Assembly (NCBI RefSeq): GCF_000403395.2 | Contig: NZ_KE159668.1 | Span: 124,001-188,000, forward strand | Reading direction: 5' to 3' | From: Anaerotruncus sp. G3(2012) | GTDB taxonomy: Bacteria > Bacillota > Clostridia > Oscillospirales > Ruminococcaceae | Length of the DNA: 64,000 bases | Shown here: piece after piece, positions 2,502 to 55,562 of the stretch | Layout of the letters: each line of letters opens with the position of its first letter | Numbering within the stretch: the first letter of the stretch is position 1 | Notes under the pieces: generated by a model | What the model saw: the letters and a program-made list of their open reading frames with translations, nothing else | Told to the model about the DNA's origin: nothing | Databases searched by the model: none | Translations under genes and position numbers: made by a program

Positions 2502-2791
2502 AAAAAATCCTGTCCTCTGTTTTCACAAAGGACAGGATTGTATCCTGCGGTACCACCTTACATTGACGCACACAGCACGTCCACTCTGCGGATGCAAACA
2601 CATCCCGGAGCTGTAACGCGCTCCCCGCGTCGTACACTACTGGGCAGAATGCTGCTGTTTGCATACGCTCTCAAGGGCTACTTTATCGGTTCCGCCTTCC
2701 GCCGGGCTTCCACCACCGCCGGCTCTCTGTGGGTGCGCAAACCGTTTTACTTCCCTGTCAACGATTTTGTGTGATGATTGTGTCTAAATTT
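2502..2791 (-). promoter_or_regulatory. T-box riboswitch leader
   Basis: On the minus strand the leader has a Stem I region with AGTA and an AGAGAGCCGG element, the near-consensus T-box AAGGTGGTACCGCA (2546-2559), and a terminator hairpin (2506-2539) ending in T6. Uncharged tRNA should stabilise the antiterminator and allow expression of the downstream transporter. The specifier loop has AACCG, then ATAAAGTAG, then CCCT on its 3' side. Several triplets in it could be the specifier, so the cognate amino acid is not assigned. Confidence 0.9.
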
Positions 2792-2986: not shown

Positions 2987-3439
2987 TCAGACGGGTCCCC
3001 GCTCCCGCAGGCACTGTTCCACCACCCTTGGGGGCAGCGCAGTATACCGGCTGACCTGTTCCACCGTCCAGCCATTGGCACGGCAGTCGGCGAGGGTCTG
3101 CCTGTCGAGCAGGAGAAACCCTGCGAAGAGGTCCGCTTCCCGCTCGTAGCGGGCAGTGACAAAATCGGTGCTCTGTTTCAGGAAGAAAGAGTTGTATCCG
3201 GTGTGCAGCAGCGCGTGACCCAGTTCATGCGCGCAGACTGCTGCACGTTCCTTGGGGTCGGATAGTCCGCTGTTGAGATAGACGATCGGTACCCCAAGCG
3301 GACTGGCATAGAATCCGCGGATCCTCGCAGGAAGCGGCAGCTCAAGCAGTTCCACATCCAGAAAGCCGCAGAGGGCGAACGGGTCAGCGGTGTGGAACCG
3401 CTCGACCAACGCATCCGCAGCCGATTTGAACCGTTCCAT
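2987..3439 (-). CDS. ImmA/IrrE-type metallopeptidase
   Basis: A 150-residue protein with the zinc-peptidase motif HELGH (about residues 91-95) and a conserved downstream glutamate in EREADLFAGFLLL. In known ImmR/ImmA pairs, for example ICEBs1, the ImmA protease cuts the neighbouring XRE repressor and so derepresses the element. Here the gene lies 24 bp downstream of an XRE repressor on the same strand, the classical order. The ATG at 3439 has GGGAGG 5 nt upstream. No integrase, relaxase or phage structural gene is nearby, so it may be a domesticated switch. Confidence 0.88.
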   Translation of the reverse strand: MERFKSAADALVERFHTADPFALCGFLDVELLELPLPARIRGFYASPLGVPIVYLNSGLSDPKERAAVCAHELGHALLHTGYNSFFLKQSTDFVTARYEREADLFAGFLLLDRQTLADCRANGWTVEQVSRYTALPPRVVEQCLRERGPV

Positions 3440-3463: not shown

Positions 3464-3877
3464 TCAGGCTTCCCCGCCATTGTTTGTGCGGCGGCGCAGT
3501 TTCTCAACCGCTACCATCGTTCCCACTTCGATCGCATCTACCACCTGCGCGATGTCGCTTTCTGAAAGCGGCATCCCGTTAAACATCAGGCCCTGCTGGG
3601 AAAGCAGGTGGGCTCGGAAGTCCTCTATAACGTCATTCAGGTCAATATTGCTCTGTAAAGCGGCCTGCTGTTCACTGGGTACGGGGCTGTCCAGCAACAG
3701 CGAATCGCTGGAGACTTCAAACAGCTGACAGATCTTCAGCAGGGTGGCATGGTCCGGGCTTCGCCTGCCCTGTTCGTACATGCCGACTGTACTGGTGGAA
3801 ATTCCCAACGCTTTCCCCAGTTCCTGCTGCGTCATACAGCGAGATTTGCGCAGCATTTTCAATTTTTCTCCAAGCAT
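3464..3877 (-). CDS. XRE-family repressor (ImmR-like)
   Basis: A 137-residue DNA-binding protein. Residues about 5-58 form a Cro/C1-type helix-turn-helix (MTQQELGKALGISTSTVGMY). The C-terminal half is probably for dimerisation or protease recognition. A GAGGTGA ribosome site precedes the ATG at 3877. It is divergent from the coiled-coil/sigma-like operon. Its own promoter and the divergent promoter each carry a CAC-N5-GTG palindrome in the spacer, which makes it the likely binder and an autoregulator. Confidence 0.88.
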   Translation of the reverse strand: MLGEKLKMLRKSRCMTQQELGKALGISTSTVGMYEQGRRSPDHATLLKICQLFEVSSDSLLLDSPVPSEQQAALQSNIDLNDVIEDFRAHLLSQQGLMFNGMPLSESDIAQVVDAIEVGTMVAVEKLRRRTNNGGEA

Positions 3878-3898
3878 GTTGACTCACCTCACATCTTT

Positions 3899-3927
3899 AT
3901 ATTATCACATACTGTGTAATTTGTAAA
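3899..3927 (-). promoter_or_regulatory. Repressor promoter with operator 1
   Basis: Minus-strand TTTACA (3922-3927), 17-bp spacer, TAATAT (3899-3904). The spacer holds the palindrome CACATACTGTG (3906-3916, plus-strand reading). A bound repressor would block RNA polymerase. Confidence 0.65.
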
Positions 3928-3947
3928 TCTTTTTTTCTGAATTTCCC

Positions 3948-3976
3948 TTGACAAAACACGAATCGTGTGATAATCT
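3948..3976 (+). promoter_or_regulatory. Divergent promoter with operator 2
   Basis: TTGACA (3948-3953), 17-bp spacer, TAATCT (3971-3976). The spacer holds the perfect 13-bp palindrome ACACGAATCGTGT (3956-3968), which contains CAC-N5-GTG. It drives the coiled-coil and sigma-like genes. Confidence 0.72.
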
Positions 3977-3997
3977 AATAAAAAGAACATATGTTTA

Positions 3998-4008
3998 CAC
4001 AGTTTGTG
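3998..4008. promoter_or_regulatory. Third CAC-N5-GTG operator copy
   Basis: CACAGTTTGTG lies between the divergent promoter and the ribosome site of the coiled-coil gene. It has the same spacing as operators 1 and 2, so a second repressor dimer could bind in the transcribed region. Confidence 0.6.
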
Positions 4009-4029
4009 GAAAATGGAGGGGTCTAACCG

Positions 4030-4248
4030 ATGTATTTACACCAGCTCGCTTGTCAATATGAAGAAGCTGCCGGACGGATTCAAAAGCGGATCGCTGAACT
4101 AAAGAAGGCAGCAGAACAGGCATACGGCCAGGAGGCTGCTTCGCTCCAGAAACGGATCGAAACACTCTATACGGAACTGCATGACCTGCGGGTTGTTGCA
4201 AAACATCTGGACGGGTATTGCTCCGCCGATGCAAAAGAACCCGGCTGA
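4030..4248 (+). CDS. Small coiled-coil protein
   Basis: A 72-residue hypothetical protein, Glu/Lys/Ala/Gln-rich over residues 10-55 with a heptad-like pattern and no membrane segment or signal peptide. GGAGG lies about 10 nt upstream of the ATG. It is the first gene of the operon controlled by the XRE/ImmA switch and is followed by the sigma-region-4-like gene. I do not recognise the family. Its position suggests an accessory or adaptor protein, but no function is shown. Confidence 0.7.
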   Translation: MYLHQLACQYEEAAGRIQKRIAELKKAAEQAYGQEAASLQKRIETLYTELHDLRVVAKHLDGYCSADAKEPG

Positions 4249-4304
4249 TTTTTTCAGAACCACGGCTATCTCACCAGACTTTGATTTTCGAGGAGGAGTT
4301 TTGA

Positions 4305-4610
4305 TTGTTTGAACAACGGCGCACCGTCCAGCTGCGGCAGGACTTCTCACAGCTCAGCAGCCGGCCTATCTCTGCCAACGACAATTCCAGACAGCGGGAA
4401 AAGTACCGCAAATTCCTGTCAGCCGCAATCAAATCCCTCCCGCCGCGCCAGCGGGATTCGATCCGGCTTTACTATTTGGAAGGCAAAAAGCAGCAGGAAA
4501 TTGCCGAGCTGCTTGGGGTTGAGCGTTCGACTGTCAGCCGCAGACTGAAGGCTGCGCGGCAATCGCTCCAAAAACTCGCTGCGCTTTTTACGGATGCCGG
4601 AATCTTTTAA
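4305..4610 (+). CDS. Sigma-70 region-4-like HTH protein
   Basis: A 101-residue protein. Residues about 44-90 match a sigma-factor region 4 helix-turn-helix (SLPPRQRDSIRLYYLEGKKQ, then a recognition helix with ERSTVSRRL). The region-2 part of a full sigma factor is absent, so it resembles small phage or ICE activators of the ArpU/sigma-like type. The start is TTG at 4305, with AGGAGG 8 nt upstream. It is second in the operon facing the XRE/ImmA pair and may be an activator of another locus. Confidence 0.78.
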   Translation: MFEQRRTVQLRQDFSQLSSRPISANDNSRQREKYRKFLSAAIKSLPPRQRDSIRLYYLEGKKQQEIAELLGVERSTVSRRLKAARQSLQKLAALFTDAGIF

Positions 4611-4685: not shown

Positions 4686-4770
4686 GCGGGCGTGGCGGAA
4701 TTGGCAGACGTGCTAGATTTAGGCTCTAGTGGTGTAAACCGTGCAAGTTCAAGTCTTGTCGCCCGCACCA
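4686..4770 (+). tRNA. tRNA-Leu (anticodon TAG)
   Basis: An 85-nt class II tRNA with a long variable arm. The acceptor arm is GCGGGCG paired with CGCCCGC, the anticodon loop TTTAGGC gives TAG, and CCA is encoded. tRNA-Leu genes are common integration targets. The ImmA/XRE cluster lies just upstream, but I see no duplicated tRNA 3' end marking an att site. Confidence 0.95.
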
Positions 4771-55430: not shown

Positions 55431-55452
55431 ACAGAAAACAAAAAAGGCCACA

Positions 55453-55550
55453 TGCAGGGGTGCTGGAGGAATCCGGCTGTGATTGATCGTAGTCCCGATC
55501 AGATCCCTTAGAACCTGATCTGGGTAATGCCAGCGTAGGAAGCAGTTGCG
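55453..55550 (+). promoter_or_regulatory. TPP riboswitch (THI element)
   Basis: Conserved blocks in order are GGGGTGCTGGAGG, CCGGCTGTGA (usual CTGAGA), ATCCCTTAGAACCTGATCTG and GGTAATGCCAGCGTAGGAA. It should bind thiamine pyrophosphate and favour the terminator that follows. Confidence 0.95.
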
Positions 55551-55562
55551 AAACTTCGTTTA

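Follow-up and report, generated by a model that had tools for sequence, protein, structure and literature searches.

Why would a bacterial chromosome carry a repressor seemingly of the protease-released kind in front of an operon that encodes neither integrase nor conjugation functions? The question is raised by a locus in a 64-kb stretch of DNA from Anaerotruncus sp. G3(2012), the whole of which is referred to here as the window. An earlier note on this DNA, which covered positions 3464-4610, had proposed an orphan ImmR/ImmA-like switch that controls a coiled-coil protein and a sigma-like protein and that may have been domesticated as a damage- or signal-triggered device turning on genes elsewhere.

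The cassette and its control region

The cassette consists of two divergent operons, XRE and M78 leftward and cc and sig rightward, separated by a gap at 3878-4029 (Table 1); the M78 gene lies just beyond the range covered by the earlier note. The likeness of the XRE and HELGH protease pair to protease-released repressors is borne out by the HTH_3 and PF06114 matches, and HEL[GA]H and E-A-[DEN] are present in all 14 proteins of an M78 alignment that included the one from the window. An XRE gene adjoining an M78 gene with HEXXH is the gene pair of the ImmR/ImmA type. The rightward operon likewise encodes a 72-residue coiled coil and a sigma-region-4-like protein where the note had placed them, the latter with a PF08281 match. 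Downstream of sig, at 4686, there is a tRNA-Leu gene with its own consensus promoter; the neighbours recognised by eye in the window are arginine genes, a transporter and this tRNA-Leu gene. Elsewhere in the window, a T-box leader was seen at 2525-2770 (minus strand), upstream of an NSS-type-transporter-like gene (from 1090), and a TPP riboswitch at 55446-55558 (plus strand).

Table 1. Features of the cassette, in window coordinates.
Feature	Position	Strand	Remarks
M78 (ImmA/IrrE-like) metalloprotease gene	2987..3439	-	150 aa, HELGH; PF06114 E 6.4e-16
XRE repressor gene	3464..3877	-	137 aa; HTH_3 E 1.6e-13
XRE promoter TTTACA-17-TAATAT	3899..3927	-	TTTACA 3927-3922, TAATAT 3904-3899; found by promoter scan
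Predicted operator O1 CACATACTGTG	3906..3916		within XRE promoter spacer
cc-sig promoter TTGACA-17-TAATCT	3948..3976	+	TTGACA 3948-3953, TAATCT 3971-3976; by sequence
Predicted operator O2 CACGAATCGTG	3957..3967		within cc-sig promoter spacer
LexA-type (SOS) box GAACATATGTTT	3985..3996		same 12 bases upstream of recA in this genome
Predicted operator O3 CACAGTTTGTG	3998..4008		in leader, one base past LexA-type box
Coiled-coil gene (cc)	4030..4248	+	72 aa
Sigma-region-4-only gene (sig)	4305..4610	+	101 aa, TTG start; PF08281 E 3.3e-15

Both promoters of the window have a 17-bp spacer filled by a CAC-N5-GTG palindrome, and a third copy is present in the leader, all at the positions first described. 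The cc-sig promoter is missing from the promoter-scan list because its second hexamer, with 3 of 6 matches, falls below the rule of the scan. The palindrome is not rare by itself (10 occurrences in the window, 12.5 expected), so that its weight comes from clustering, position and conservation. These were assessed in relatives of the XRE gene. A pattern scan of 84,980 species genomes found 302 of them, of which the best 80 were retained; together with 20 loci from the family and the window they make up 101 loci, a selection that favours close relatives, and 92 non-redundant loci were left for the operator and motif counts once 9 duplicates had been dropped. Within 320 bases upstream of XRE, CAC-N5-GTG is found in 84 of the 92 loci, where 3.1 would be expected from single-base shuffles, with 148 sites in total, a few of them overlapping; the control, other 320-bp windows from the same loci, gave 88 of 2147. 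Conservation in sequence thus rules out chance as the source of the clustering of these predicted operators. A site lies inside the XRE promoter spacer in 69 of the 92 loci (8.0 when all but the sites is shuffled) and inside the cc-sig promoter spacer in 18 (6.6 in the same kind of shuffle). The pattern of an operator in both promoters therefore extends to the relatives with regard to the XRE promoter, whereas its cc-sig half belongs to part of the family. Several predicted operators over divergent promoters, as expected of an ImmR/ImmA-type system, are present by sequence and conservation.

The exact promoter-embedded operator occurs as one copy each in 8 of 22 genomes, every time at the cassette, and the repressor regulon for this reason looks mostly local. 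Two sites were inspected among the looser matches with one or two mismatches. The own genome has a one-mismatch, promoter-like site with CAC-N5-GTG intact (L234:1579-1603, that is G000:C19:270078-270102), flanked by genes that by eye are ddl-like and NYN-domain-like; it could be a second repressor target, or due to chance. In the other, a one-mismatch match in genome G145, the CAC is not intact.

A further element of the control region, overlooked in the earlier note, is a LexA-type box, which lies at about the expected cc-sig transcription start and ends one base before O3. A search of the 3.6-Mb own genome for GAACATATGTTC, allowing at most one mismatch, found four places: ahead of recA, with all 12 bases identical, ahead of uvrB, in a variant form, at the cassette, and inside a pyruvate phosphate dikinase gene. 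The backward pattern gave 4 strand matches in this genome against 8 for the real one, and the argument for the box accordingly concerns where the sites lie and not their number. A weaker form, AAACGTATGTTC, is found about 165 bases upstream of lexA. Upstream of XRE, 23 of the 92 cassettes have a box; elsewhere in these loci, 36 of 2147 windows contain one. It is present in 9 of 14 LexA-bearing genomes and in none of 7 LexA-less ones (Fisher p 0.007), where LexA presence means a PF01726 match over the cut-off, G115, with a match below it, is counted as LexA-less, G045 is left out, and G042 and G102, with no sig beside XRE, are kept in. In the order as a whole, 30 cc loci, of which 3 have no sig hit, were examined for a box no more than 260 bases upstream of cc, and 10 of them have one, against 0.54 expected; the 12 loci of family f14 have none at that place. 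Judged by sequence and position, the cassette thus carries a predicted operator that matches the organism's own box, as a member of a LexA (SOS) regulon would, which supports the damage link suggested for the switch. In genome G119, lexA itself was seen about 2 kb from the XRE gene (contig C36; L043, L060).

The repressor linker and the protease

In the structural model of the XRE protein (mean pLDDT 85.7), the residues L97-M98-F99 lie in the turn between the C-terminal helices 80-93 and 106-136. Across the 92 loci, L-M-F is present in 76 of the 80 with M78 (the exceptions being LML twice, LLF and LCF) and in none of the 12 without it, where the position reads LIF, LML, LTL, LLV, LMM, LQF twice, IGV, LYY, LKN or ISF, or is gapped (L050, which was omitted from the tree). 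The M and the F are the repressor columns most tied to M78 presence (p 5.8e-10 and 2.2e-7, respectively). In four of the 12 loci without M78, sig is missing too, and these may represent other XRE genes; with such loci excluded, the counts are 73 of 75 and 0 of 8. On the best tree, M78 presence changes 9 times and LMF 12 times, but the tree is poor in supported branches, which leave just two independent M78/LMF pairs, and the p-values therefore overstate independence.

The cleanest case for a joint loss of M78 and change of motif is the clade of L116 and L145, where M78 is missing, the gene that usually follows it adjoins XRE, and LML and LMM, respectively, stand in place of LMF. This fifth gene comes after M78 in 40 loci of the clade, which is mostly from the rumen, judged by record title; with L116 and L145 it is present at L087:5039-5551 and in 41 other loci, among them L094, L101 and L144. 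For one member a weak relation to LURP-one was seen, under the Pfam cut-off, and two other members had no match. With regard to M78 genes elsewhere, none was found anywhere in the genomes of G068, G102 and G125, the single one of G087 is that of the cassette, and the M78-less cassette genomes G119, G042, G059 and G145 have M78 genes at other places.

By the account in PMC8960796, the cut in ImmR of ICEBs1 falls at F95-M96, within the linker that joins its two predicted C-terminal helices, and LMF is predicted to occupy such a linker here. That the motif is altered in locus after locus where the protease is missing, which the earlier note had not described, points to these three residues as the likely site at which the protease recognises or cleaves the repressor.

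Distribution and chromosomal setting

XRE relatives at E 1e-14 or better are present in 21 of 148 genomes of the family, the own genome included. The search for the cassette in related genomes, suggested as a check of the original proposal, found M78 and sig beside XRE in 80 of the 101 loci, sig only in 10, M78 only in 7 and neither in 4. The loci with M78 only are L088, L103, L135, L140 and L142, with the repeats L035 and L041; in the first four of these, the contig ends less than 900 bases from XRE on the sig side. The flanks fetched for 20 regions, several of them shortened by contig ends, contain by eye housekeeping-looking genes that differ from genome to genome, and G068 and G087 have the order truB-ribF-trkA-UDG-sig-cc-XRE in common (names by eye). 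A patatin-like gene, also named by eye, was observed next to or near the locus in G114, G042 and G145 (L037, L044, L050).

When 22 genomes were searched for tyrosine integrases, serine recombinases and relaxases, no match lay within about 10 kb of the cassette, contig ends permitting, except in G068, where a XerC/XerD-like gene scoring below both cut-offs is the sole integrase match of the genome. A serine recombinase lies about 12 kb away in two M78-less loci, those of G042 (no sig beside XRE) and G145. Apart from the gene in G068, integrase, recombinase and relaxase matches are thus absent over this distance as far as the contigs reach. The earlier note had named a constant place inside a complete prophage or ICE as evidence against its proposal; this is not what is seen, since relatives of the cassette lie among genes that by eye look like housekeeping genes. 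The flanks and the recombinase and relaxase searches support an orphan ImmR/ImmA-like switch outside a mobile element; control of such an element, as in ImmR/ImmA systems, was not found. In the own genome, the first 4 kb of contigs C1, C5, C19 and C23 each contain one and the same set of three integrase matches, equal in score, which suggests a repeated element that broke the assembly.

Comparison with the nearest relative, Anaerotruncus sp. S30_Bin7 (L072), gave dN/dS values of 0.05 for M78, 0.11 for XRE, 0.15 for cc and 0.16 for sig, indicating purifying selection on the four genes. A chromosomal cassette with low dN/dS values adds to what the earlier note had described. The cassette XRE gene is kept in small genomes of about 0.7 (G068), 0.9 (G087), 1.0 (G102) and 1.1 Mb (G125); cc and sig are kept in G068, G087 and G125 and were not found beside XRE in G102.

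Among 48 viral contigs encoding XRE relatives, no sig hit was found anywhere in the locus, and an M78 hit was found in 4. The XRE protein matched 21 phage records; in 4 of these the match covers 80% or more of the protein, at less than 60% identity. A tblastn search with sig of 50,697 phage records gave no match. Homologues of cc are present in three viral contigs, in which sig was not recognised by eye; in two rumen phage contigs (L231:4001-4240 and L232:685-924), the homologue was seen among structural genes, upstream of a prohead-protease-like gene (by eye).

The cc-sig pair extends beyond the switch. A cc-like ORF stands ahead of sig in 77 of 83 sig-bearing loci, and a cc profile has matches in 74 of 394 genomes of the order. 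Out of 29 further cc loci, 26 have sig beside cc, just 2 a cassette-type XRE and 1 an M78 gene. On these counts cc-sig is more widespread than the repressor-protease pair, which the earlier note had not described, and it is perhaps older than its XRE-M78 switch. In family f14, a tRNA-Thr gene is beside cc in all 12 fetched loci, with tRNA-Tyr too in 11; L213, among these loci, gave no hit for sig. A plasmid search with the sig of G115 gave two weak matches, one of which, a Vescimonas replicon, carries cc-sig and no cassette-type XRE, under the record names 'hypothetical protein' and 'sigma-70 family RNA polymerase sigma factor'. The position of cc beside tRNA-Thr(TGT), nearly always with tRNA-Tyr(GTA), was observed in the 12 f14 loci and in Vescimonas (L200, L209, L210, L213, L216, L219-L221, L224, L226, L228-L230). 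The term domesticated therefore suits the chromosomal setting of the cassette, but the spread of cc-sig without repressor and protease means that the switch may be a later addition to an older host operon and not the leftover of an element.

The output of the switch and its possible role

A Pfam search with cc gave zero families above the cut-off; prefoldin and phage Gam were considered and rejected, every score being under it. For sig, among the 25 of 50 families listed, those above the cut-off are two region-4 families, ECF (matched at 132-181 of 185) and a generic HTH, and the 25 include no region-2 model. A protein of 101 aa in which no region 2 was seen should not act alone as an ordinary sigma factor. 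In its structural model, sig is a sigma region 4 preceded by a helix, with low confidence at the start, and the nearest folds are region-4 structures such as 2h27 (sigma-E on -35 DNA; Foldseek E 1.7e-3), with nothing passing E 0.001. A split-sigma idea, with cc as region 2, was dropped as the hallmark was not seen in cc. The fold of sig and the presence of no other gene in the operon suggest that sig may act in trans, which is the weakest step of the explanation; what the switch seems to activate is a small protein with the potential to direct RNA polymerase.

Comparable arrangements are found in mobile elements. The defective prophage PBSX, which has late genes, carries a repressor (Xre), an M78-like protein (XkdA) and a sigma-like late activator (Xpf), and Orf7 of Tn916 is sigma-like. 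According to PMC7288454, orf7 of Tn916 up-regulates xis and int and is itself believed to be kept down by the repressor Orf9. By description, the cassette is similar in having a predicted repressor over the gene of a sigma-like protein and differs in that Tn916 is conjugative. ICEBs1 of Bacillus subtilis, as presented in PMC8960796, also has an XRE repressor, an M78 protease and several operators over two promoters. Unlike ICEBs1, the cassette is chromosomal, has no mobility genes, carries a LexA-type box and has cc-sig as its output; the switch would work like ImmR/ImmA and not be part of a mobile element. With regard to damage, PMC10904395 describes how, in Deinococcus, the M78 protease PprI (IrrE) cuts the XRE repressor DdrO in a C-terminal loop after damage, and how single-stranded DNA activates both PprI, for the cleavage of DdrO, and CapP, for that of CapH. 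DdrO was also among the fold matches. The natural reading is therefore a protease that senses damage and cuts the XRE repressor of the cassette, and the LexA box independently points to a damage link. DdrO restrains several damage-response genes, whereas the exact promoter-embedded operator is here confined to the cassette. Activation through RecA is not general among ImmA-type proteases: in pneumococcal ImmAR prophages, RecA can repress excision (PMC12637031).

We consider it probable that the locus is an inherited chromosomal ImmR/ImmA-type switch, double-locked by LexA, that drives a region-4-only sigma-like factor in trans. This explanation builds, by sequence and comparison, on the gene set, the operators, the SOS box, the co-variation of LMF and protease, the chromosomal setting and purifying selection, and from these we infer repressor binding, a cleavage site, a damage trigger and an output in trans. 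In quiet cells, the XRE protein would sit on CAC-N5-GTG in both promoters and hold down its own operon and cc-sig, with LexA at its box as a second lock on cc-sig. Upon DNA damage, LexA would be cleaved. The M78 protease, for which single-stranded DNA may be a stimulus as it is for PprI and CapP, would cut the repressor at the L97-M98-F99 linker. The cut repressor would leave the DNA, allowing cc and sig to be produced, and sig would bind RNA polymerase in the manner of a region-4 domain and redirect it, probably together with cc, to promoters elsewhere.

The locus could alternatively be the remnant of a prophage or ICE, of which just the control region is left and the genes are drifting. ImmR-ImmA pairs commonly control mobile elements, by the account in PMC10233336, and a remnant would also suit the believed restraint of orf7 by Orf9 in Tn916 (PMC7288454), the tRNA-Leu gene downstream, the XRE matches in phage records and the cc homologue among the structural genes of two rumen phage contigs. 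The low dN/dS of all four genes is at odds with drift, however, and the recombinase and relaxase searches with their one exception in G068, the neighbours common to G068 and G087, and the lack of a sig hit in the viral XRE loci speak against an element, so that this already disfavoured reading is quite improbable. A role in defence in the manner of CapH-CapP, with cc-sig shutting down or reprogramming RNA polymerase in a phage-infected cell, is unlikely as well. CapH and CapP of CBASS are likewise a transcription factor and a protease, with cleavage stimulated by single-stranded DNA in the description given by PMC10904395, and a region-4-only protein could conceivably displace the housekeeping sigma factor. 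PADLOC, run on the four cassette proteins, weakly matched M78 to capP (E 4.1e-9) and XRE to capH (E 5.7e-7), the better models for XRE being HTH_VI (6.2e-14) and RmrA (7.4e-12); cc, however, had no match and sig weak ones only. Furthermore, no CBASS or other defence genes were recognised by eye among the neighbours and window ORFs, and syntenic inheritance, as with tRNA-Thr beside cc in f14, and the retention of the cassette XRE in genomes of 0.7-1.1 Mb argue against such a role.

A local autoregulatory loop, in which sig would act on its own or neighbouring promoters with no wider regulon, has in its favour the confinement of the exact operator to the cassette in 8 of 22 genomes. This confinement concerns the repressor and not sig, though, the neighbours differ among genomes, and the own genome has one near-match operator elsewhere, which makes the loop improbable. 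Beyond the preferred reading of a double-locked chromosomal switch, we tentatively raise a broader one, for which our confidence is clearly lower: cc-sig may be the core of an undescribed SOS-linked transcription programme of these Clostridia, in which two proteins make up a region-4-only sigma-like factor that even strongly reduced genomes have retained. Some lineages would have fitted it with a further damage lock that depends on a protease, and the natural cases in which the protease is absent and L-M-F changed would mark where it cuts the repressor.

ImmR/ImmA switches are known mainly from mobile elements, and here one appears to be inherited with the chromosome in many bacteria that, by record title, come from the gut or rumen. 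The cassette combines an ImmR/ImmA-type switch with a LexA-type box and a sigma-like target protein. If sig does have targets in trans, it would represent an unrecognised second tier of the damage response in these bacteria.
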